A DNA stretch of 64,000 nt from NCBI GenBank assembly GCA_023954475.1, contig JAMLHW010000020.1, positions 1 through 64,000 of the forward strand, read 5' to 3'. Position 1 is the stretch's first letter; each line of letters starts with the position of its first letter. This document shows positions 1,159-11,493 of the stretch, piece after piece. The DNA comes from Anaerolineae bacterium (lineage in GTDB: Bacteria > Chloroflexota > Anaerolineae > Promineifilales > Promineifilaceae). The position numbers and the translations under genes were made by a program. The notes below the pieces were generated by a model. The model was not told the DNA's origin. It worked only from the letters and a program-made list of their open reading frames with translations, and searched no databases.

Positions 1159-1178
1159 CACAAATCCACCTCGGTGTC

Positions 1179-1195
1179 CGCGGATTCCATCCGCG
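1179..1195. repeat. REP-like 17-bp palindrome
   Basis: CGCGGAT-TCC-ATCCGCG is a perfect 7-bp stem with a TCC loop. It lies between hsdS and the small ORFs and belongs to the same set as the palindromes at 2148, 2971, 4511, 5125 and 5159. Confidence 0.7.
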
Positions 1196-1235
1196 CCAAA
1201 CAGGCAGCCTCGTTGTCGCGCTTGGGAAAGCGCGG

Positions 1236-2963
1236 TTACGATTGTGCCAGCACCGCATCGAGCAATTGTGTGCGGGCAGCCTCGGCCGAAACCAACCCCG
1301 CCGCCACCCGATCGCACAGCGCCAGCAATTCATCCACCTTCGCCACTATCCGCTTCTGCTCTTCTTGCGGAGGGATCGGCAAAACAAAGTTCTTAATATC
1401 ACGTAGAACCAGATTCTTGTTACCGACCCCGCGTGTGTTCTTTGCTGACTTCGCTTTGACTAGAGGAGAGTTGATAAGCGCAACGAGGTATTCTGGATAG
1501 AGCTCTTCCTGATTGAATTTTAGTAGTGCAACACTGACAAAGATGCTGAACTCATCTTGCGTATCCACGATGACAGCGATGCCAGTTGTTCCAACTTTTG
1601 TAAGCAGGATATCTCGAAACTCAGGATAACATCTTTGGATCAGCGTTTCGTGTTGTTCACGTGTAATGAATCTTGTGTTGCTGAAGTCCAAATAGCCAGA
1701 ACTCACGTCCTTAACAGACAGAAAAGGTACTCCTTCATCGACGTACTTGGGCGTATGATGCGCACCGTCAGTAACTACGTGGCACAAATTGCCCATCCGT
1801 TCCCACTGCCACGATTCAGGAATCGTGAAAGGCCTCTCTTCGGCCGAAATCTTGCCCAACTTCTTACCCTTCCGAATCTTCCCCTCCTTCACCAACCGCG
1901 CCTTCTCCGCCGCAATCCGCTCCAGCAGCACACTCGCCGGCTCATCATTCGGGTCCTGCGGCACAAGCCGCCCCATCACCGCCAACTGCAAAATCGTCTG
2001 CTTCAGCGAGTCGATGTGCTCCGGCGTCGTGTGGATGTGGTCAAACATCGCCTCAACCTGCCGCCACGCCGCCTGCGTCTCATCCGGCGACTGCGCCCCA
2101 CTCAAGCGCCCCACCGCCGCCCCCTGCAACCGATCCCGCACCGTACCCGCGGTTTCCAACCGCGCCTTCAACGCCCGCGTCTGCGCAAACAACGCATCCA
2201 CCTTCGCCACAATCCGCTTCTGCTCATCTGCTGGCGGCAATGGGACAAGCATTGTTCTCAAGGCTTTCATGTTGACATGCCGTGCTGCCGTACCCTTGAG
2301 TTTTGAACTCCACTGTTCGACAAACATTGGCGAAACAATTGCGAGTCGGAAATACTCAGGAATTATGGTTTTCGATACACGATACATCATCATGCGTTGA
2401 CCTAGGCAAACCTCCAAGTTCGGAGGGACAATAATAGATTGTCCAATCGTACCTTCGCGAGAAAAGAGAATATCTCCAGCCTCTGGTTTCAATCTCCGAA
2501 TTCGTTCCACGAATGTCTCTGGGGATACACGTCTCAACTTATCGTAGTGAATGACACCCTGGCTGATATTAGTCGTATCAATGCAGTACAGTTCACCAGA
2601 GTCAATAAATTTTGCTGTGCTGTGAGGGCAATCGATTATGTGCGTAGATACCCTTTCTGTTCTTACCCACTGCCACGAATTGGGTAGGTTATATGGATAA
2701 TCTTCGGCCGAAATCTTGCCCAACTTCTTACCCTTCCGAATTTTCCCCTCCTTTACCAACCTCGCCTTCTCCGCCGCAATCCGCTCCAGCAGCACACTCG
2801 CCGGCTCATCATGCGGGTCTTGCGGCACCAGCCGCCCCATTACTGCCCACTGCAAGATCGCCTGCTCCAGCTTCTCCACATCGGCCGGCGTCTCGATCAA
2901 CCCGTCAAACCGCTCCAGCAGCAGCGCCAACTGACTCATCTCACTTCCGTTTCGCTCACTCAT
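1236..2963 (-). CDS. hsdS: Type I restriction-modification specificity subunit HsdS
   Basis: HsdS supplies the two target-recognition domains that choose the bipartite DNA site for the HsdR/HsdM complex. This 575-residue protein shows the usual two-fold layout: conserved region (LEQAILQWAVMGRLVPQDP...), TRD1, a central conserved region with a second near-copy (LKQTILQLAVMGRLVPQDP...), TRD2, and a closing EEQKRIVAKVDELLALCDR helix. Both conserved helices precede an LPNSWQW- or IPESWQW-type entry into a TRD. The start at 2963 overlaps the end of hsdM by 8 nt, indicating coupling; a second ATG lies a few codons in. A REP-like palindrome sits in the coding sequence at 2148-2164 and encodes part of KARLETAG. 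Length is somewhat above average for the family. Confidence 0.93.
   Translation of the reverse strand: MSERNGSEMSQLALLLERFDGLIETPADVEKLEQAILQWAVMGRLVPQDPHDEPASVLLERIAAEKARLVKEGKIRKGKKLGKISAEDYPYNLPNSWQWVRTERVSTHIIDCPHSTAKFIDSGELYCIDTTNISQGVIHYDKLRRVSPETFVERIRRLKPEAGDILFSREGTIGQSIIVPPNLEVCLGQRMMMYRVSKTIIPEYFRLAIVSPMFVEQWSSKLKGTAARHVNMKALRTMLVPLPPADEQKRIVAKVDALFAQTRALKARLETAGTVRDRLQGAAVGRLSGAQSPDETQAAWRQVEAMFDHIHTTPEHIDSLKQTILQLAVMGRLVPQDPNDEPASVLLERIAAEKARLVKEGKIRKGKKLGKISAEERPFTIPESWQWERMGNLCHVVTDGAHHTPKYVDEGVPFLSVKDVSSGYLDFSNTRFITREQHETLIQRCYPEFRDILLTKVGTTGIAVIVDTQDEFSIFVSVALLKFNQEELYPEYLVALINSPLVKAKSAKNTRGVGNKNLVLRDIKNFVLPIPPQEEQKRIVAKVDELLALCDRVAAGLVSAEAARTQLLDAVLAQS
1840..2006 (-). repeat. 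hsdS internal direct repeat, copy A
   Basis: These 167 bp encode the central conserved region of HsdS. They match 2704-2870 at roughly nine of ten positions by eye. Such long direct repeats around a TRD can mediate recombination that swaps or deletes half-sites. Confidence 0.85.
2148..2164. repeat. REP-like 17-bp palindrome inside hsdS
   Basis: CGCGGTT-TCC-AACCGCG is a perfect 7-bp stem with a TCC loop, within the hsdS coding sequence. The same palindrome occurs at 5159 beside the transposase gene. Confidence 0.75.
2704..2870 (-). repeat. hsdS internal direct repeat, copy B
   Basis: This is the N-terminal conserved region of HsdS and the partner of 1840-2006. Both copies begin at a TCGGCCGA octamer. 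Confidence 0.85.
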
Positions 2964-4458
2964 TCGTATCCGCAGTTTCCAACTGCGCCGTCCCGTGACG
3001 CGGATGGGAATCCGCGGATACGGGTTGTGTCAGGGCAGCAGCGAGCGCATCACGCAGCGCCGTCCGCAGCGTCTGCACCGCGTCCATCTCCGCCTCATAG
3101 CGCGCTAGCAGCTTCACCGGGTCGCCGTTCTGCACCTCTTCCTCGTGCGGATTCTTGATGTCCAGGTTGTAGCCGCGCCGCTCGATCTCCTCAATCGGCA
3201 CGCGCCACGCATATTCATTCTCCTCCCGCGTCTCCCACCACGCCTTCTCCAAATCAAACTCATCGATCGTCAGCGGGCGCGTCATCGAATACGCCTTGCG
3301 GTCGCTCGGCATGGGATGCTCAAAATACCAGATCGCCTCCGTCGGCTGCCCCTTCTCAAAAAACAGCAAATTCGTCTTGATGCCCGTGTACGGCGCAAAC
3401 ACCCCATTCGGCAAGCGCACAATCGTGTGCAAATTGCAGTCGCGCAGCAGCTTCTCCTTGATCCGCGTCTTGACGCCCTCGCCAAACAGCGAGCCGTCCG
3501 GCAGCACAATCGCCGCCCTGCCGCCCTTCTTTAGCAGCTTGATAATCAGCACCAAAAACAGGTCGGCCGTTTCCTTCGTCTGAAACGTCTTCGGAAAACC
3601 CGACTCGACACCCGGTTCCTCCTTGCCGCCAAACGGGGGATTGGTCAACACCACATCGACCCGATCCTTCTTTTCATAGCTGCGATACGGCCGACGCGTC
3701 AGCGCATTGTCGCGCACCACATCCGGCACGCTGACCCCGTGCGCAAACAGATTGGTCAGACACAACACGTGCGGTAGCGGCTTCTTCTCTACGCCCATCA
3801 AACTCTGCTCGACCACCGCCAAATCGTCCGCGTCCTTTGCCTGGGCTTTCATGTGTTCCAGCGCACACACCAGAAAACCGCCCGTGCCACACGCTGGGTC
3901 GAGCACTGTCTGCCCCAACTGCGGATCGACCATATCGACCATGAACTGCGTCACCGCACGCGGCGTGTAATACTCACCCGCATTGCCCGCGCTCTGCAAA
4001 TCGCGCAAAATCTTCTCGTAAATATCGTTGAATAGATGGCGCTCTTTCTGGTCGTGAAAATCGATCTCGTCCAGCTTATTGATCACCTGCCGCATCAACG
4101 TGCCTGACTTCATGTAGTTGTATGAGTCGGCAAAAATCTCGCCGACTATTTGCCCGCGCCGGTCGATGCCCTCTCGCGTCGCCAACCCTTTCAACTCCGG
4201 AAACAGGCGCGCATCAACAAATTCCATCAACTCATCGCCCGTCATCCCTTCATCATCGGCTGCCCAGTTACGCCAGCGCAGCGGCTCCGCAATCGGCGAC
4301 ACGTAATCCGGTTCCCACTCAAAGTCATCCTCAGCCGCATCAAACAGCTTGAGGAACATCATCCACACCATCTGCGAAATGCGCTGCGCGTCGCCGTCCA
4401 CGCCCGCGTCTTGCCGCATGATGTCCTGTATCGACTTGACGATTGTTGATATGCTCAT
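2956..4458 (-). CDS. hsdM: Type I restriction-modification DNA methyltransferase HsdM
   Basis: HsdM is an adenine-N6 methyltransferase that with HsdS protects host DNA and with HsdR forms the restriction complex. From the chosen ATG (4458, MSISTIVKSIQDIMR) the protein has 500 residues, normal for the family. An N-terminal helical domain precedes GEYYTPR (161-167), SAM motif I DPACGTGGF (187-195) and catalytic NPPF (273-276). The longer reading frame to 4644 adds residues from REP-like sequence (RSFQPRLSQQETADT) and is rejected. The C-terminus also ends in REP-derived residues, so the tail may have been remodelled by an insertion. No TCGGCCGA occurs in the gene, one of the longer gaps in the window. 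It lies between the transposase gene and hsdS. Confidence 0.95.
   Translation of the reverse strand: MSISTIVKSIQDIMRQDAGVDGDAQRISQMVWMMFLKLFDAAEDDFEWEPDYVSPIAEPLRWRNWAADDEGMTGDELMEFVDARLFPELKGLATREGIDRRGQIVGEIFADSYNYMKSGTLMRQVINKLDEIDFHDQKERHLFNDIYEKILRDLQSAGNAGEYYTPRAVTQFMVDMVDPQLGQTVLDPACGTGGFLVCALEHMKAQAKDADDLAVVEQSLMGVEKKPLPHVLCLTNLFAHGVSVPDVVRDNALTRRPYRSYEKKDRVDVVLTNPPFGGKEEPGVESGFPKTFQTKETADLFLVLIIKLLKKGGRAAIVLPDGSLFGEGVKTRIKEKLLRDCNLHTIVRLPNGVFAPYTGIKTNLLFFEKGQPTEAIWYFEHPMPSDRKAYSMTRPLTIDEFDLEKAWWETREENEYAWRVPIEEIERRGYNLDIKNPHEEEVQNGDPVKLLARYEAEMDAVQTLRTALRDALAAALTQPVSADSHPRHGTAQLETADTNE
2971..2987. repeat. REP-like palindrome at the hsdM/hsdS junction
   Basis: CGCAGTT-TCC-AACTGCG is a perfect 7-bp stem with a TCC loop. 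A second GCGGAT...ATCCGC hairpin follows at about 3000-3015. Together they form the last codons of hsdM (TAQLETADTNE). Confidence 0.7.
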
Positions 4459-4510
4459 AAAAATCCTGTCGTTGCGATTAGCTGTATCCGCGGTTTCCTG
4501 CTGCGAGAGG

Positions 4511-4527
4511 CGCGGTTGGAAACTGCG
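4511..4527. repeat. REP-like palindrome between hsdM and tnpA
   Basis: CGCGGTT-GGA-AACTGCG is a 7-bp stem with one G-T type mismatch. It has the complementary GGA loop, so it is inverted relative to the copy at 2148. A degenerate copy (CCGCGGTTTCCTGCTGCG) precedes it at about 4488. Confidence 0.65.
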
Positions 4528-4528
4528 T

Positions 4529-5074
4529 TTACGGGTCTTGTGTGAGATGGCTCCCGCCCGGCGCATCGAAGGGCTGATCTTGATGACCCCAGCCGATCTC
4601 ATACCATCCACGGCTGACGTATTCCCTGTAACTGCTGTGCGCATACGTTTCTGGGCGTGTTGTCAAACCATGTTTGACGGGATTGTAATGAATGTAGTGC
4701 AAATGGTTGTAGAAGTCGCGCTCGTCGCGAATGACGTGGTCGTGGAAGCTGCGATGCCATAGTTTGGTGGGTTCAATGATGCCTTCCTGGTGCTTTACAT
4801 TGCGAGTGAAGTTGCGTTTGATCGAATGCATCAGCTTGCTGATGTCGGTTTCACCTTTGAGTTGCAGTAGCAGGTGGCAGTGATCGGGCAAAATCACGTA
4901 TCCCTTCATACCAAATGGATGATGTATCTGGGCTTCTCGCATGGTCTCTCTCAGTATCGCGACGCGGTTGTCGTCGGCAAATATCGGCCGACGCTGGTAG
5001 GTCAATGCAGTGATGAAATACACGACTCCCTTAAGGTTGAGCCGGACGACACGCGAACGAATAGGTTTTGTCAT
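4529..5074 (-). CDS. REP-associated tyrosine transposase (RAYT, IS200-like HUH)
   Basis: This is a Y1 transposase of the type that acts on REP palindromes as single-stranded DNA. The 181-residue product has the N-terminal VYFITALTYQRRPIF strand, the HUH metal site as LPDHCHLLLQ, a basic helix (LMHSIKRNFTRN), KLWHRSFHDHVI, and the segment with the candidate catalytic tyrosine YNHLHYIHYNPVKHGL. The ATG at 5074 (MTKPIRSRV) gives a normal length. The frame stays open further upstream only because the 12-bp tandem repeat there is a multiple of three. It sits between hsdR and hsdM, flanked on both sides by REP-like palindromes, so gene and repeats probably form one REP-RAYT unit. It looks intact; whether it is active is unknown. 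Confidence 0.9.
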   Translation of the reverse strand: MTKPIRSRVVRLNLKGVVYFITALTYQRRPIFADDNRVAILRETMREAQIHHPFGMKGYVILPDHCHLLLQLKGETDISKLMHSIKRNFTRNVKHQEGIIEPTKLWHRSFHDHVIRDERDFYNHLHYIHYNPVKHGLTTRPETYAHSSYREYVSRGWYEIGWGHQDQPFDAPGGSHLTQDP

Positions 5075-5088
5075 GGAGTGCTCACAGG

Positions 5089-5133
5089 CGCAGTTGGTAG
5101 CGCAGTTGGTAGCGCAGTTGGTAGCGCAGTTGG
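5089..5133. repeat. 12-bp tandem repeat (CGCAGTTGGTAG, 3.75 copies)
   Basis: Three exact copies of CGCAGTTGGTAG (5089, 5101, 5113) run into a partial fourth that becomes the left arm of the REP-like palindrome at 5125. Each unit contains GTAG, the tetranucleotide found next to REP hairpins in enterobacteria. It lies just upstream of the transposase start. Confidence 0.9.
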
Positions 5134-5141
5134 AAACTGCG
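5125..5141. repeat. REP-like palindrome upstream of tnpA
   Basis: CGCAGTT-GGA-AACTGCG is a perfect 7-bp stem with a GGA loop, adjoining the 12-bp tandem repeat. Confidence 0.75.
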
Positions 5142-5158
5142 GTTACGGATGCCGTACT

Positions 5159-5175
5159 CGCGGTTTCCAACCGCG
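5159..5175. repeat. REP-like palindrome, inverted partner
   Basis: CGCGGTT-TCC-AACCGCG is a perfect 7-bp stem with a TCC loop. It pairs in inverted orientation with 5125-5141, giving the two-hairpin layout typical of BIME-like units. A degraded third copy follows at about 5205-5222. Confidence 0.75.
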
Positions 5176-5229
5176 CCAACCGGCACAGATGCCCGACTCG
5201 TGTGCGCGATTCCCAACCGCGCTAAAAGG

Positions 5230-7548
5230 CTACACTGCATAGAGTTGGTGTTTCACCTGTTCGATAGCTGTGACATACCCGTTGATACCACCAAAGGCAC
5301 GTGCGATTTGCTGTGGCGTGCCCATCCTGCTAAATGGATCAAGCTTGAGCAATTGCTGCGCTTGCCGCCGATCGGCTGCCTGCTCCAGCACGTCAATCCC
5401 ATCATCGGCGTATTTCTCCAATAGTGCATCCAACACACGACGCGCCATAGCGCCGTATTGCGCGTACACGTCGTCTTGCTGCACTCTGCGGGCCCGCTCG
5501 CTGCGCGTCAATGCCGGTTTGTCGTAGGCGATATGACAGATTAGGTCAAAGGCATCGTACCCTTCACCGACCTGGGCTTCCAGCTCGTTGAGCATGACGC
5601 CGTTTTTGATGAACTCGATCAATACTTCGCGCTTGCGTTCGGCCGAATCCCAACGCTCTAAAAACACATCCAACGACCGGTACGTCTTCAACACATTGTC
5701 GCGACTAAACTCGGTGAACGACTTCGTCACCAACTGCCCGCCGGCATCGTAATACTGCACCCGCTCCGCCAAAATCTGCACAGGCACATCATCGACAAAA
5801 TACTTCACTCGCGGCTCAGACGGCGGATCGCCATCTCCGTTGCCCGGCTGTGGTTCTCGTGGTGGTTTGTCGTAAGGGTATTCGATCTCCTGTTCCGGTT
5901 CACCATCGAAATCCGGATCCCGAAAATGGCGCGTCGCATTGCGGAAATCGATGATCGTGAAATGTGTCTTGCCTGCCTCAAAGTTGAGCCGCGTGCCGCG
6001 ACCCACGATCTGCTTAAACTCCGTCATCGAGTTGATCACCGTGTCGAGCACGATTACTTTGCACATCTTGGCATCGACACCCGTCGTCATCAACTTCGAT
6101 GTCGTCGCAATCACCGGATACCGTTCTTCCGTGGCAATGAAATTGTCCAGTTGCGCTTTGCCTTCCGCGTTGTCGCCCGTAATACGCATCACGCAACGCC
6201 GTTCAACCGCCGCCTCGCCGCCAATGGCGTTGACCAACGCCTGCCGCATCCGTTCCGCATGGGCAATATCGACGCAAAATACAATCGTCTTGGCATACGG
6301 TTCCAGCAGCGCCAGATATTCCGCTGTGCGCTCGGCAACCAACTGATTGCGCTGCTCAACCACAATCGTCTTATCCCAATCGCGCAAACCGTATTCTCGA
6401 TCTTCGATCACGTTGCCGAGTTTGTCCGTCTGGCCCGCTGCCGGAACCCAACCATCCACGTCAATATCGACATCGACCCGCACCACCTTATACGGTGCCA
6501 AAAAGCCGTCCTGAATGCCCTGCTTGAGCGAATAGGTATACAGTGGTTCGCCGAAGTAGTCGATATTGGATACGGTCTTGGTCTCCTTCGGCGTCGCCGT
6601 CAGACCCAGATGCACGGCGTCTGAAAAGTAATCGAGAATCTCACGCCATGCTGAATCGGCCGCTGCGCTGCCACGATGACACTCATCGATCACGATCAGG
6701 TCGAAGAAGCCGGGGGAAAACTGCTTGTAGATGTTCTGCGCTTCGTCTGTGCCGCTAACCGCCTGATACAGCGCCAGATAAATTTCGTACGACTTCTCCG
6801 CATTGCGATTGCGCACCTTATACATCACATCGCCAAAATGCTTGAAGTCGCCGGTCATCGTCTGATCGACCAACACATTGCGATCAGCCAAAAACAGCAC
6901 CCGCTTCACTTGCCGTGCCTTCCACAGTCGCCAGATGATTTGAAATGCCGTGTACGTTTTGCCCGTGCCTGTCGCCATCACCAGCAAAATCCGCTTCTGC
7001 CCCTGCGCAATTGCTGTCACGGCACGTTGAATGGCAATGCGTTGAAAATAACGTGGCTTGTGGACATTGCGCCCAGAGAGGAACGGTTGGGAGATGATCG
7101 CTTCCTGTTCGGCCGAAAACTCATTCGCCGTCACATACCGTTCCCATAGCTCATCCGGCGACGGAAACGCATCCAGCGCCAGCGCGCGCTCGATTTGCCC
7201 GTAGCTGTTCAGCTTGTCGTGCTCCAGAAAACCATCCCCATTGGAACTGTACACAAACGGCACGTCGAGCGTGTCAGCATAGCGCAACCCCTGCTGCATC
7301 CCGGCACCAATCGTGTGTTTATTGTCTTTGGCTTCAATCAGGGCGATGGCGACGCTGTTGTGAAACAGCAGATAATCGACGAAGTTGCGTTTGCCGCGTT
7401 TCGGCCGAACGTTGGGCTGCAGCTCGACCTTGCCGTCGGTGAAGTAATATTCTTCCCGAATCTGTTCGATACGCCAGCCGGCATCAACCAATGCGGGCGT
7501 GATAAATCGGGTGCGTATTTCCTGTTCAGATAACTCTCGCTTGTTCAT
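5230..7548 (-). CDS. hsdR: Type I restriction endonuclease subunit HsdR
   Basis: HsdR is the motor and nuclease subunit of the type I complex: it translocates and cuts DNA lacking HsdM methylation. The 772-residue protein has a PD-(D/E)xK nuclease domain (D58 in NFVDYLL, then IEAK at 71-74), Walker A MATGTGKT (191-198), DECH at 288-291, TATP at 317-320, and later helicase motifs including the QIVGRGTRL stretch. All key residues are present. The length is shorter than EcoKI-type HsdR and fits the EcoEI-like group. It is the first gene of the minus-strand operon, and the intergenic stretch to rarA (7549-7737) must hold its promoter. The transposase gene lies between it and hsdM, so translation of hsdM and hsdS may depend on readthrough or a separate promoter. 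Confidence 0.95.
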   Translation of the reverse strand: MNKRELSEQEIRTRFITPALVDAGWRIEQIREEYYFTDGKVELQPNVRPKRGKRNFVDYLLFHNSVAIALIEAKDNKHTIGAGMQQGLRYADTLDVPFVYSSNGDGFLEHDKLNSYGQIERALALDAFPSPDELWERYVTANEFSAEQEAIISQPFLSGRNVHKPRYFQRIAIQRAVTAIAQGQKRILLVMATGTGKTYTAFQIIWRLWKARQVKRVLFLADRNVLVDQTMTGDFKHFGDVMYKVRNRNAEKSYEIYLALYQAVSGTDEAQNIYKQFSPGFFDLIVIDECHRGSAAADSAWREILDYFSDAVHLGLTATPKETKTVSNIDYFGEPLYTYSLKQGIQDGFLAPYKVVRVDVDIDVDGWVPAAGQTDKLGNVIEDREYGLRDWDKTIVVEQRNQLVAERTAEYLALLEPYAKTIVFCVDIAHAERMRQALVNAIGGEAAVERRCVMRITGDNAEGKAQLDNFIATEERYPVIATTSKLMTTGVDAKMCKVIVLDTVINSMTEFKQIVGRGTRLNFEAGKTHFTIIDFRNATRHFRDPDFDGEPEQEIEYPYDKPPREPQPGNGDGDPPSEPRVKYFVDDVPVQILAERVQYYDAGGQLVTKSFTEFSRDNVLKTYRSLDVFLERWDSAERKREVLIEFIKNGVMLNELEAQVGEGYDAFDLICHIAYDKPALTRSERARRVQQDDVYAQYGAMARRVLDALLEKYADDGIDVLEQAADRRQAQQLLKLDPFSRMGTPQQIARAFGGINGYVTAIEQVKHQLYAV

Positions 7549-7718
7549 CGAGCGGCAATGCGAATTCTATACTGCTTTACGGTTGAAACGATGGGTGGCA
7601 AGCCCATTGCTATGGCAACTATTTTACGGTATTTGCCTCGTGGCACAAAAAGCAATTGTCGGAGAAGTAGTTTGCAGTGACTTCTTCGGTGCAAGGGTGT
7701 CTTTCGGCCGAAACATCA

Positions 7719-7727
7719 TGGTATCAT
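7719..7727 (+). promoter_or_regulatory. Extended -10 promoter of rarA
   Basis: TGGTATCAT matches TGn-TATAAT with one change and lies 10 nt before the ATG at 7738, so the leader would be only a few bases. A TCGGCCGA octamer starts 15 bp upstream. Confidence 0.45.
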
Positions 7728-7737
7728 TACAGGTGAG

Positions 7738-9948
7738 ATGACAACCCAAAACCCCGACCTCTTCGCCCACAGCCGCGACGCCCAAATCGAACGCGAATCC
7801 CCGCTCGCTAACCGCATGCGCCCGCGCACCCTCGACGAATTCGCCGGGCAGCGCCACATCATCGGGCCGGGGCGCCTGTTGCGCCGTGCTATCGAGGCTG
7901 ATCAACTGTCCTCGCTGATCTTCTACGGCCCACCGGGAACCGGCAAAACGACATTGGCGATGGTCATCGCCAACACGACTGAGAGCCAGTTCGTCACCCT
8001 CAACGCCGTATTGGACGGTGTCAAACAGTTGCGCGACGTCATCGCTGACGCTGAGGAACGACGCGGCCTCTACGGTCGCCGTACCACGCTGTTCGTCGAC
8101 GAAGTTCACCGCTGGAATAAGGCGCAGCAAGACGCCTTGCTGCCCCATGTCGAACGCGGCACCATCATTTTGATCGGTGCGACAACGGAAAATCCCTATT
8201 TTGAGGTCAACAAAGCGCTCGTCAGTCGCAGTCGCATTTTTCAACTGCGCCCCCTGACCAACGACGACTTGCGTGACGTGGCGCTACGGGCAGTGCGCGA
8301 CAAGGAGCGTGGGTACGGCAATCGGCCGATCACCCTCCACGACGACGCCCTCGACCACCTTGTCGATGTCGCCAACGGCGACGCTCGCAGTGTGCTCAAC
8401 GCCCTCGAATTGGCCGTCGAATCGACCCCGCTGGGTGAAGACGGCGTGATCACGATCGATCTGGGCGTTGCTGAGGAGTCGATTCAACGCCGCGCCGTCC
8501 TCTATGATAAAGACGGCGATGTCCACTACGATACCATTTCGGCGTTTATCAAGAGTCTGCGTGGCTCCGATCCTGACGCGGCACTTTACTGGATGGCGAA
8601 GATGATCTACGCCGGCGAAGACCCGCGCTTCATCTTCCGTCGCATGGCGATTCTAGCCGGCGAAGACATCGGAATGGCTGATCCGCAAGCCGCCGTCGTC
8701 GTCGATGCGTGCTGGTCGCTGTTCGAGCGCATCGGCTTGCCGGAAGGTCAGTTCCCGCTGACGCAGGCGGCGCTCTACCTGGCGACTGCGCCTAAATCGA
8801 ACACAGCCCTGTCCTTTTTTGATGCACTTGCCACTGTGCAGCAAGAGCGTGAGGCGGATGTCCCCAATCATCTCAAGGACGGCAATCGCGACAAGGAAGG
8901 ATTCGGGCACGGTGAAGGGTATCGATATCCACACGCGTACCAGGAGCATTGGGTGGCGCAACAATATTTGCCCGGTGCGTTGCAGGGCAAGGTGTTTTAC
9001 GAGCCGAGCGGCCAGGGGTACGAAAAGCGCATCAAGCTGCAGGTGGAACGTCGCCGTGAAGAGCAACTGGCGGCGCTGGCAGACGTTGAGGATGCGCATT
9101 TGGAAATGTGGACGACGAGTCCGACCGATCGGGCGCGGGATCGCTGGCTGGAGCGGGCCGTTGCCGGAACCGGGCGTCAACTCGGAGCGCTGCGCGACCG
9201 ATTGTTTGCTGCCGCGCAAATGCAGCGCCATCATCTCGTGCTCGATGTCAAGGCAGATGACGGGCTGCTGCTGTGGGAAGCGGTGCGCATTGTGCCGGAG
9301 GGTGGCGTGTGGGCCGTCGTGACGCCGGAAGGTCGCGAGAACATTTCCGGTTTGGCGACGCGGCTGCCTGAGTTGGAACGCCCCCATTTGTTGTCTGATT
9401 TGGATAGTGGCGACGTGCGTTTTGACCGCATTATCGGCCGAAACGCCTTCACGCATCTGCACAACCAGACCGGATTGATCGACCGCTTACACAGCTTGCT
9501 ACTGCCGGACGGCAAATTGTGTCTGCTGCAAATTGTGCCGCGACGTGGTCAACGATTGCATGAATTGATCGATTGGGCTGGGGAGACGGTGCTGCAGCAG
9601 AAGGTAGCCGCGGCCGAAGAACTGCTCTGGTCAGATTCGGCCGATACACTGGTCAACTGGGATATTGCAGATCTGGAAGCGGCGTTGCTCGCACAGTTTA
9701 CCGGCATCCACATTGAGAAGATAGCATTCCAGGAGACGCGGCGCATTACACAAGCGCAACTCGACCGCTGGTTTGGCTCACGTGCAGATACGACAATTGG
9801 CTCGTATGCGCAAAAGTTGGTTGAAGCCGGTTTGAATGGAGAGGAAGTGGCGACTATCGGCCGCATGTACCGACGCGCCTTGCAAGACCAAATGGTCACC
9901 TGGCACAGCCTCTACGTGTTGGCCGTCGCTGACTACCATGTTGCTTGA
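7738..9948 (+). CDS. rarA: Replication-associated recombination protein RarA fused to methyltransferase-like domain
   Basis: RarA (MgsA) is a clamp-loader-like AAA+ ATPase that works at stalled replication forks. Residues 1 to about 440 form a full RarA: Walker A GPPGTGKT (64-71), Walker B LFVDEVH (118-124), sensor-1 GATTENPYFEVN, the SRSRIF arginine-finger region, and the C-terminal DVPNHLKD / YRYPHAYQEHWVAQQYLP signature. A second part of about 290 residues follows; its start (HHLVLDVKADDGLLLWEAV) looks like the nucleotide-binding strand and loop of a Rossmann methyltransferase. Similar RarA/unknown-domain fusions are annotated in cyanobacteria. Motif I is degenerate (DVKADDG), so catalysis is uncertain. 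A short AGGTGAG abuts the ATG. The gene is monocistronic by orientation. Confidence 0.9.
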   Translation: MTTQNPDLFAHSRDAQIERESPLANRMRPRTLDEFAGQRHIIGPGRLLRRAIEADQLSSLIFYGPPGTGKTTLAMVIANTTESQFVTLNAVLDGVKQLRDVIADAEERRGLYGRRTTLFVDEVHRWNKAQQDALLPHVERGTIILIGATTENPYFEVNKALVSRSRIFQLRPLTNDDLRDVALRAVRDKERGYGNRPITLHDDALDHLVDVANGDARSVLNALELAVESTPLGEDGVITIDLGVAEESIQRRAVLYDKDGDVHYDTISAFIKSLRGSDPDAALYWMAKMIYAGEDPRFIFRRMAILAGEDIGMADPQAAVVVDACWSLFERIGLPEGQFPLTQAALYLATAPKSNTALSFFDALATVQQEREADVPNHLKDGNRDKEGFGHGEGYRYPHAYQEHWVAQQYLPGALQGKVFYEPSGQGYEKRIKLQVERRREEQLAALADVEDAHLEMWTTSPTDRARDRWLERAVAGTGRQLGALRDRLFAAAQMQRHHLVLDVKADDGLLLWEAVRIVPEGGVWAVVTPEGRENISGLATRLPELERPHLLSDLDSGDVRFDRIIGRNAFTHLHNQTGLIDRLHSLLLPDGKLCLLQIVPRRGQRLHELIDWAGETVLQQKVAAAEELLWSDSADTLVNWDIADLEAALLAQFTGIHIEKIAFQETRRITQAQLDRWFGSRADTTIGSYAQKLVEAGLNGEEVATIGRMYRRALQDQMVTWHSLYVLAVADYHVA

Positions 9949-10070
9949 TTTTCTTGAGCAGGCGGGTGACGCGGATCGATTTCGGCCGAATTGTGCGAAC
10001 ACATTGATCAATTTACAGGCAGGTGCTACAGTGTGTTCACAATTACTAACCGTTTATCAAGGAGTTACCT

Positions 10071-10316
10071 GTGGAACCGTTTTTGGGACAGATCGTGTTG
10101 TTTTCATATGGCGGCTGGGCGCCGCGCAATTGGGCAAAATGCGAGGGGCAGTTGCTGCCAATTTCTCAAAACTCAGCGTTGTTTTCGTTGTTAGGCACGC
10201 AATTTGGCGGCGACGGCAGAACGACGTTTGCTTTGCCCGATTTGCGTGACAAAGCACCGGCACCGTATACGTACTATTGCATTGCACTGAACGGCATCTT
10301 TCCCTCGCGCAACTGA
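10071..10316 (+). CDS. Short tail-collar domain protein
   Basis: The 81-residue product consists of one phage Tail Collar-type domain: MEPFLGQIVLFSYGGWAPRNWAKCEGQLLPISQNSALFSLLGTQFGGDGRTTFALPDLRD, ending in YYCIALNGIFPSRN. The WA-C-GQLLPI / LFSLLGT-GGDG-TTFALPDL pattern is diagnostic. Longer homologues (microcystin-dependent-protein type) carry extra collar repeats; this is a single-repeat form, apparently complete because the YCIAL-GIFPSRN end occurs in other small family members. An AAGGAG stretch precedes the ATG. Collar proteins form trimeric tips on tail or pilus-like fibres, but no phage structural genes are nearby, so the role here is open. Confidence 0.85.
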   Translation: MEPFLGQIVLFSYGGWAPRNWAKCEGQLLPISQNSALFSLLGTQFGGDGRTTFALPDLRDKAPAPYTYYCIALNGIFPSRN

Positions 10317-10363
10317 CAGCGATCATGTGCAATGGGTCGAACCGTTTTCGGCCGAAATAAATG

Positions 10364-10391
10364 AAAAAGGACGCAGTTTACGCTGCGTCCT
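10364..10391 (-). terminator. Rho-independent terminator of argF
   Basis: GGACGCAG-TTTACG-CTGCGTCC is a perfect 8-bp stem. On the minus strand it is followed by five T. It lies 33 bp beyond the argF stop. Confidence 0.85.
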
Positions 10392-10423
10392 CTGCTTGTT
10401 GGGCTTGTGAGTCTGCAAGTGCC

Positions 10424-11428
10424 TTAATCGCCCAGTGTGGCGACCATCACGGCCTTGATCGTGTGCAACCGGTTTTCCGCCTCGTCAAAGACGATAGAAG
10501 CCGGCGATTCAAACACTTCTTCCGTCACTTCCACCCCATTTTCCAGACCAAACTTCTCTGCCATCTCTTTGCCGACTTTTGTGTCGGCATTGTGGAAAGC
10601 GGGCAAGCAGTGCATAAACTTCACATGCGGATTGCCGGTCATCTCCATTGCTTGTGCATTCACCTGATACGGTTTCAGCACGTTGATCCGTTCCGCCCAA
10701 ACAGCGTCCGGTTCACCCATCGAAACCCAGACATCGGTATAGAGAAAATCTGCCCCCCTGACTCCTTCGGCCACATCGGCCGTCAATGTCAGACGAGCGC
10801 CTGTTTCTGCTGCGATTTCTCGACATTGACCGATTAAATGCGCTTCCGGCCATAGATGTTCCGGCGCACAGAGGCGCACGTCCATCCCCAACTTGCAGCC
10901 GCCAACCATCAGGGAGTTGCCCATGTTGTTGCGGGCATCACCCATATAAGTAAATGCAATTTGTGATAAATCTTTGGTGCTGTGTTCCATCATTGTCAGC
11001 ACATCGGCCAAGATTTGGGTGGGGTGGAATTCATTCGTCAGCCCGTTCCAGACGGGAACACCGGCATATTCGGCAAGGGTTTCCACGGTAGCCTGGGCAA
11101 AGCCGCGATATTCTATGCCGTCATAGGAGCGGCCGAGCACGCGAGCCGTGTCCTTCATGGTCTCTTTGTAGCCGATATGGGAGCCGCTTGGCCCCAGATA
11201 GGTGACATGGGCACCTTGATCAAAGGCGGCAACTTCAAAAGCGGTACGGGTGCGGGTAGAAGCTTTCTCAAAGATGAGCGCTATGTTTTTGCCTTTGAGA
11301 CGTTGGACTTCGTAGCCGCCGTATTTAGCTGCTTTCAAATCGGCCGATAATTTCAACAAAAACTTGATCTCGGCCGGTGTGAAGTCCAATAATTTGACGA
11401 AATTGCGATTGCGCAGATTAAATGCCAT
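10424..11428 (-). CDS. argF: Ornithine carbamoyltransferase
   Basis: It transfers the carbamoyl group of carbamoyl phosphate to ornithine, giving citrulline in arginine synthesis (or the reverse reaction in arginine catabolism). The 334-residue protein is of normal length. The carbamoyl-phosphate loop STRTRT (57-62), HPTQ (135-138), the ornithine-side DVWVSMGE, and HCLPAFH near 275 are all intact, the last being diagnostic for OTCase over aspartate carbamoyltransferase. No other arg gene lies nearby. A hairpin at 11465-11493 sits in its leader and the terminator at 10364 closes it, suggesting a single-gene transcript. The biosynthetic form is presumed, since no arcA or arcC is visible. Confidence 0.95.
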
Positions 11429-11464
11429 GTTTACCTGGTAGTTGTTGTGAATCAGTTTGAAACA

Positions 11465-11493
11465 GGCCTGGCAAGCTCATCACCTGCCAGGCC
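11465..11493. terminator. Hairpin upstream of argF
   Basis: GGCCTGGCA ... TGCCAGGCC is a perfect 9-bp stem with an 11-nt loop between the small membrane gene and argF. On the minus strand it is followed only by TGTTTC, so it is either a weak terminator of the upstream gene or a leader structure of argF. Confidence 0.45.

Follow-up and report, generated by a model that had tools for sequence, protein, structure and literature searches.

Why does the gene of a REP-associated tyrosine transposase (RAYT) lie amongst the genes of a type I restriction-modification (R-M) operon, and why do the repetitive extragenic palindromic (REP) hairpins accompanying it occur in that operon and nowhere else in the genome? 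The locus raising this question is situated in a 64-kb stretch of DNA from an Anaerolineae bacterium (hereafter the window, meaning the whole stretch analysed), which belongs to contig C13 of a 26-contig genome of 5.12 Mb. RAYT genes have been described as single-copy and mostly vertically inherited; they do not copy themselves and were not seen on plasmids (PMC8049555). The explanation that we favour, with somewhat better than even confidence, is that the operon-borne RAYT copies REPs locally and is inherited together with the restriction operon. The components of this arrangement are known; what appears to be new is that RAYTs are embedded in this way again and again, with repeats that are in frame and confined to the operon. 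In the literature, with subscription papers only partly covered, no description of RAYTs or REPs combined with restriction operons was found.

The RAYT gene

The R-M operon is located on the minus strand in the order hsdR, RAYT, hsdM and hsdS, with the family domains identified by Pfam. The RAYT gene (4529..5074, minus strand) codes for 181 aa, starts with an ATG at 5074 and terminates with a TAA codon at 4529-4531, in the head of the REP hairpin R7; the open reading frame (ORF) is intact, in agreement with the original prediction of an undamaged HUH transposase between hsdR and hsdM. Its product matched Y1_Tnp (PF01797) with 40.4 bits against a cut-off of 23, and the REP-associated tyrosine transposase model NF047646 with 149 bits against a cut-off of 80. 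The sole PDB match was the E. coli TnpAREP structure 4ER8 (E 2.3e-19), in alignment with which both the HxH motif (LPDHCH versus LPEHMH) and the catalytic tyrosine (Tyr127 versus Tyr115) are conserved. Inverted REPs border the gene on both sides, R8/R9 upstream and R7/R6 downstream. The gene is thereby a RAYT (TnpAREP), whose product is predicted from sequence to bind and cleave REPs in single-stranded form. An insertion sequence of the IS200/IS605 type was ruled out, as the IS200 model scored 29.9 bits, under its cut-off of 55, and the genome holds one copy of this RAYT clade.

No close relative of the window RAYT was found within its own taxonomic family, its named relatives being metagenome-assembled genomes of Anaerolineae/Chloroflexota. 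Many of the relatives with 37-55% identity from the same class have GTAG-headed hairpins at their borders, each in its own design; in the genomes of four of them 72, 96, 32 and 133 matching hairpins were counted with up to 2 mismatches, and zero with reversed-pattern controls. The clade of the window RAYT is therefore REP-linked.

Ten REP hairpins

Ten REP units were delineated between positions 1172 and 5226, with the consensus CGTAYCCGCGGTTTCCAACCGCG (CGTAYC-CGCGGTT-TCC-AACCGCG-CC). At least six 17-bp palindromes had been predicted at 1.18-5.18 kb; their design proved real and their number turned out to be higher. Eight units form four inverted pairs. R1 (1172-1200, plus strand) and R2 (1212-1241, minus) are paired downstream of hsdS, to which the GTAA head of R2 gives the stop codon, whereas R4 (2964-2992, plus) and R5 (2994-3023, minus) lie in frame in the 3' end of hsdM, R4 encoding QLETADTNE and standing at the hsdS start. 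R6 (4482-4510, plus) is paired with R7 (4506-4534, minus) at the RAYT stop codon, and R8 (5120-5148, minus) with R9 (5152-5180, plus; 41.9 bits, E 9.9e-9 genome-wide) upstream of RAYT. The two singles are R3 (2141-2169, plus), placed in frame inside hsdS where it encodes LKARLETAGTV of the central coil, and R10 (5198-5226, plus; CGTGTGCGCGATTCCCAACCGCG), which is separated from the hsdR stop codon by 3 bp. The inverted copies and the 12-bp tandem repeat anticipated at the transposase start were both confirmed, the former as R8/R9 and the latter as 3.8 copies of GCGCAGTTGGTA at 5088-5133 (minus strand), which represent a repeated half of the adjacent R8 (GTAG-CGCAGTT).

In 7 of the 10 REPs the 7-bp stem is perfect and the loop is TCC/TCCC (or GGA/GGGA). 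Hairpins of this design occur 7 times in the whole 64 kb, every one of them a REP, and chance formation was ruled out by 40 Markov simulations, which averaged 0.15 such hairpins and never exceeded 1. The stems co-vary (GTT/AAC, GAT/ATC, CTT/AAG and CAGTT/AACTG), with two-sided changes in 3 stem base pairs, 91% of cells paired and a covariation score reached by 3 of 500 shuffles. They are thus GC-rich imperfect palindromes with conserved stem pairing, as REPs are, and the short-spaced inverted pairs are those typical of bacterial interspersed mosaic elements (BIMEs) and of REP doublets forming hairpins (REPINs). As single-stranded DNA these pairs fold far better than their shuffles (z from -2.9 to -6.3), R8/R9 making one long hairpin of 61 nt (z -6.3). 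The heads are GTAC, GTAT, GTAA and GTGT, with an invariant GT and an A in 8 of 10, and hence differ from the GTAG of classical REPs; neither are the units numerous, genome-wide and extragenic, as several of them lie within or overlap ORFs.

One may suppose that the palindromes have nothing to do with RAYT and serve the operon as terminators or attenuators. Several do stand at gene ends and fold stably; nevertheless, they are devoid of T-tracts, the terminator scan picked up none of the ten, and the conserved GTA head and inverted pairing are features of REPs, the same hairpin design adjoining related RAYTs. We regard this supposition as very improbable indeed.

Confinement to the operon

The covariance model of the ten REPs, applied to the whole 5.12-Mb genome, returned exactly ten matches (worst E 5.9e-5), the next having an E of 0.49; as the REPs used for building the model match it by construction, what is informative here is that no others appeared. 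A pattern search for the 17-mer, allowing no more than 1 mismatch, gave 5 copies genome-wide, all in the operon of the window. Genome-wide REPs overlooked by exact patterns were excluded by the covariance model. The earlier impression that the palindromes do not occur elsewhere thus holds across the genome, and the random genome-wide scatter that had been named as contrary evidence was searched for and was not observed.

Changes in the hsd genes

The gene hsdR (5230..7548, minus strand) encodes 772 aa with ResIII, EcoEI_R_C and HSDR_N domains (Pfam), and its product is 56-57% identical across the length to HsdR in the relatives L059 and L060; the hsd gene order of the loci L059-L061 matches that of the window operon. 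The gene hsdM (2956..4458, minus strand) carries HsdM_N and N6_Mtase, and hsdS (1236..2963, minus strand; 575 aa) has two Methylase_S stretches. The locus is a type I R-M operon with predicted restriction and modification activities. It should be added that in the RAYT-free relative L059 a different palindrome family is represented by two near-identical copies (AGAAGTTCGACTTTT...AAAAGTCGAACTTCT) in the gap between hsdR and hsdM (6062-6418).

HsdM homologues with 57-70% identity stop at or just past the helix around residue 480, whereas HsdM of the window has about 21 extra C-terminal residues (TQPVSADSHPRHGTAQLETADTNE), encoded by R5/R4 and ending with ...AQLETADTNE. In HsdS, residues 265-275 (LKARLETAGTV) of the central coil are encoded by R3; homologues align with this site without gaps and with other residues (LEAKLRQAQAD in L060, LKESLAGAAAE in L059). 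About 10 codons of the coil were thus replaced by a REP with the length kept, and the change in HsdS is therefore a replacement, no plain insertion. REP heads hold the stop codons of hsdS (TCG-TAA) and of RAYT (CCG-TAA), and LETASTAS is encoded in the frame that leads up to the RAYT ATG. Recurrence of the LETA peptide, as predicted, was seen in the HsdM end, in HsdS 265-275 and in this upstream frame. At the corresponding alignment positions REP-free HsdS and HsdM homologues lack LETA; the conservation there that had been named as contrary evidence was not observed. The proposal that repeats had reshaped the subunits therefore stands for the HsdM tail and the HsdS codons, with the refinement that in HsdS residues were exchanged and not simply inserted. 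Duplication of the HsdS halves by REPs was considered and rejected: the halves are locally 79-97% identical in REP-free homologues too, and being equally similar there they imply that the half-duplication was not REP-driven.

A second operon with RAYT in the same genome

Another RAYT was found on contig C22, with 22% identity to that of the window (local alignment) and a score of 59 bits, under the NCBIfam RAYT cut-off of 80. It also belongs to a type I R-M operon (L159, G000:C22:36000-54000, positions 4603-11467), arranged on one strand as hsdM - hsdS - RAYT - hsdR, with hsdS split in two ORFs. This RAYT is bordered by a perfect, private 28-bp palindrome, GTAGGGGTTTGATGCATCAAACCCCTAC, whose genome-wide pattern search with up to 3 mismatches revealed 3 copies: the two flanks and one inside hsdM of the same operon. 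The latter copy adds 13 residues to HsdM (region of STGTGLMHQTHTDG), absent in four homologues of about 50% identity. The third RAYT (contig C1) shares 48% identity with that of C22; it is free-standing with no R-M genes near, and its palindrome was encountered on two other contigs as well, in a sample of 532 kb of the own genome. On contig C1, palindromes of yet another family (GTAGGGCGGATAGGTTATCCGCC; L197:17671-18001, G000:C1) are arrayed regularly at a spacing of about 62 bp; members of this family were also noted at L159:13671 and twice in L258.

How long both operons have resided in the genome may be judged from the octamer palindrome TCGGCCGA, hyperabundant in the window (98 observed versus 1.6 expected), and likened by us to HIP1 (highly iterated palindrome 1) in cyanobacteria. 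Its density is 1.48 per kb in the own genome (532 kb sampled) and around zero in same-family and other relatives; in the operons it reaches 1.1 per kb (window; 7 sites, a small count) and 0.87 per kb (C22; 6 sites, likewise small), with one site in each of the two RAYT genes. Assuming that the motif accumulates with residence time, such near-genomic density argues against a very recent transfer of either operon, and even so the REPs of both have stayed within them.

This bears upon the possibility that the operon came from a REP-rich donor, the ten copies came along and nothing has moved since. The nearest HsdM relatives (67-70% identity) do belong to other families, same-family HsdM sharing only 48-49%, which together with the lack of a close RAYT relative in the own family and with the genome-wide REPs in genomes of some RAYT relatives would fit such hitch-hiking. 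On the other hand, about 2.5 REPs per kb, several in or overlapping ORFs, is a density far above that of genome-wide families (from tens of copies up to about 130 in a genome); the exact REP pattern was found in none of the other genomes of the class (396); the TCGGCCGA density indicates long residence; and confinement recurs with unrelated REPs in the C22 operon and in two further genomes, G013 and G137, described below. We consider passive arrival with the operon unlikely, albeit worth weighing.

Recurrence in relatives

In about a dozen relatives RAYTs of several subclasses were located inside or directly beside type I operons: G221 (L078), G227 (L136), G179 (L142) with G148 (L158), which represent one lineage, G117 (L157), G013 (L194), G137 (L195), G022 (L196), G323 (L208), G358 (L199), G101 (L168) and G097 (L162); a RAYT remnant stands beside hsdR in L043. 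G227 shares the hsdR-RAYT-hsdM-hsdS slot with the window, its HsdM being 66% and its RAYT only 28% identical, and a long tandem array lies beside RAYT in that slot (L136:3009-3423). According to the RAYT tree (FastTree), the R-M association requires 11 changes, at least 6 of which are forced by well supported branches, and it has therefore arisen several times. In searches of plasmid RAYTs the neighbourhoods were mostly unrelated, with the exception of a Monoglobus plasmid (Bacillota; NZ_OY725736.1; L239:4983-12776), where a relative of the C22 RAYT has a DNA-methyltransferase gene on either side within a type III-like R-M operon.

In-frame REP inserts were detected in these operons, too. HsdR of L043 has an insert of 26 residues absent from L195, and HsdR of L195 one of about 22 residues absent from L043; in HsdM, inserts amount to 10 residues in L194 and 20 in L196, the homologues having empty sites. 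Furthermore, every palindrome of the operon REP type in the 18-kb windows of L194 and L195 falls within the operon, and in samples making up some 4-5% of each genome the REP core of L194 was not found in a further 215 kb of G013, while that of L195 had 1 copy in 227 kb of G137. REPs at the same HsdM position were seen in L194 (9768-9795) and L208 (4023-4050), with compensating stems (CAG/CTG versus CAT/ATG), which suggests that the two share one ancient insertion whose hairpin has been preserved. Downstream of hsdS in L157 (8149-9815) and L142 (3372-5030), copies of the hsdS 3' end are interspersed with palindromes, a picture that would fit capture and copying of the gene end by the repeat mechanism.

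These features touch on the view that RAYT and REPs are a working part of the R-M system, diversifying hsdS or tuning hsd expression through mRNA hairpins and stop codons in REP heads. REPs are indeed found at the hsdS 3' end in the window, the C22 operon, L078 and L157, where they often provide the stop codon; the hsdS-end copies among palindromes in L157 and L142, as well as the co-directional placement of RAYT, point the same way. Against it, no sign of specificity exchange was noted, the HsdS halves are equally similar in REP-free homologues, REPs have entered hsdM, hsdR and RAYT as well, and stop codons supplied by REPs are ordinary for GTAG REPs (PMC3733652). We deem such a function improbable.

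To what extent the association exceeds chance was estimated from neighbouring N6-methylase genes, with the expectation derived from each genome's own methylase density and the window's genome excluded. Of the window-type RAYTs, 6 of 99 were within 4 kb of such a gene versus 0.58 expected (P 2.7e-5, about tenfold), and with one case fewer (e.g., with G179/G148 merged) P was 3e-4. For the C22-type RAYTs the figures were 4 of 29 versus 0.18 (P 2.9e-5), and P 7.5e-4 without the weak case G040; R-M genes were among their more frequent neighbour classes. The first examples were already known when these tests were devised, and defence islands and integration hot spots were not controlled for. Weak N6 neighbours at G074:C32 and G040:C96, which are probably not type I systems, were kept in the statistics and left out of the operon list.

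The same numbers weigh on the thought that type I operons merely tolerate passengers between hsd genes, a slot in which RAYT has lodged by chance, having no particular bond with restriction. The same places are occupied by a DUF1016/YhcG nuclease gene in L060, by DUF3800 in L061 and by Fic, AbiEii and GmrSD-type genes in others; in E. coli, hsdS and hsdR are separated by DarTG2 (PMC12255303); and RAYT neighbours elsewhere are mostly ordinary genes. The excess of RAYTs near N6-methylase genes in both types is contrary to a generic guest slot, as is the orientation of RAYT, which is on the hsd strand in 13 of 13 cases (window aside, G179/G148 counted once and the C22 operon included), and the slot alone leaves operon-confined REPs unexplained. 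We judge chance lodging to be on the unlikely side.

Proposed origin of the association

The identity of RAYT, its intact catalytic residues, hairpin covariation, confinement, the hsd changes relative to homologues, the second operon and the recurrence are observations, and local copying by an operon-borne RAYT is the reading that we prefer for them. RAYT, being co-directional amongst the hsd genes, would probably be expressed together with them. Its HUH nuclease may recognise the GTA-headed hairpin in single-stranded DNA and would copy hairpins to nearby DNA, and for this reason the REP population would stay in and around the host operon. Surviving REPs would be those that leave reading frames usable, at stop/start junctions, in linkers or as in-frame inserts. 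The restriction operon, in turn, may keep RAYT and move it between genomes; an R-M operon is a likely vehicle because RAYT genes do not copy themselves.

Several points weigh against this reading. In both types, RAYTs are mostly surrounded by ordinary genes, and R-M loci account for about 5-14%; REPs of the G221 operon (L078) were found outside the operon as well, and confinement is therefore no rule; and the set of ten, with its several stem variants, could also be old or inherited. Tentatively, and with rather less than even confidence, we extend the proposal to a general one: RAYTs of several subclasses would have settled repeatedly in type I R-M operons, and at least once in one of type III, with operon-private REPs rewriting hsd genes in frame, the operons moving otherwise non-mobile RAYTs and RAYT acting as a local engine of hsd change.

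Residence of RAYTs in R-M operons, which are themselves transferred, would offer a concrete and testable route for RAYT spread, and operon-confined repeats provide a natural test of local RAYT action. The in-frame inserts with reciprocal empty sites show that repeats can alter core defence proteins with frames unbroken. Annotation pipelines would show such RAYTs merely as a transposase beside hsd genes.

Comparison with known systems

The window RAYT resembles known RAYT/TnpAREP proteins (4ER8, NF047646) in sequence, HUH and tyrosine residues, C-terminal tail and flanking inverted REP pairs; it differs by its position within a type I R-M operon, by REP heads GTAY/GTAA/GTGT instead of GTAG, and by cognate REPs that are few and operon-confined. 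With REPs, BIMEs and REPtrons (Nunvar 2010, PMC2817692; Di Nocera 2013, PMC3733652) the hairpins share inverted pairing, the flanked RAYT and heads supplying stop codons, the last being described for GTAG REPs (PMC3733652). Classical families also have some copies inside genes, but they are genome-wide and mainly extragenic, in contrast to ten copies in 4 kb, several of them coding.

In Thauera and marine gammaproteobacteria, REPs are clustered near a RAYT, in clusters of up to 200 kb (PMC2817692). The likeness consists in REPs concentrated by a RAYT, that of Thauera probably acquired by transfer, and these clusters are a precedent for local REP production after transfer; no tie to restriction operons has been described for them (PMC2817692). 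Rickettsia palindromic elements are likewise short palindromes inserted in protein genes (PMC3733652); they are spread across many genes, whereas the REPs of the window are in one operon along with the RAYT gene. Finally, DarTG2 between hsdS and hsdR (PMC12255303) is similar as a foreign module lodged amongst hsd genes, while the module in the window encodes a transposase, the repeats of which have got into the hsd genes themselves.

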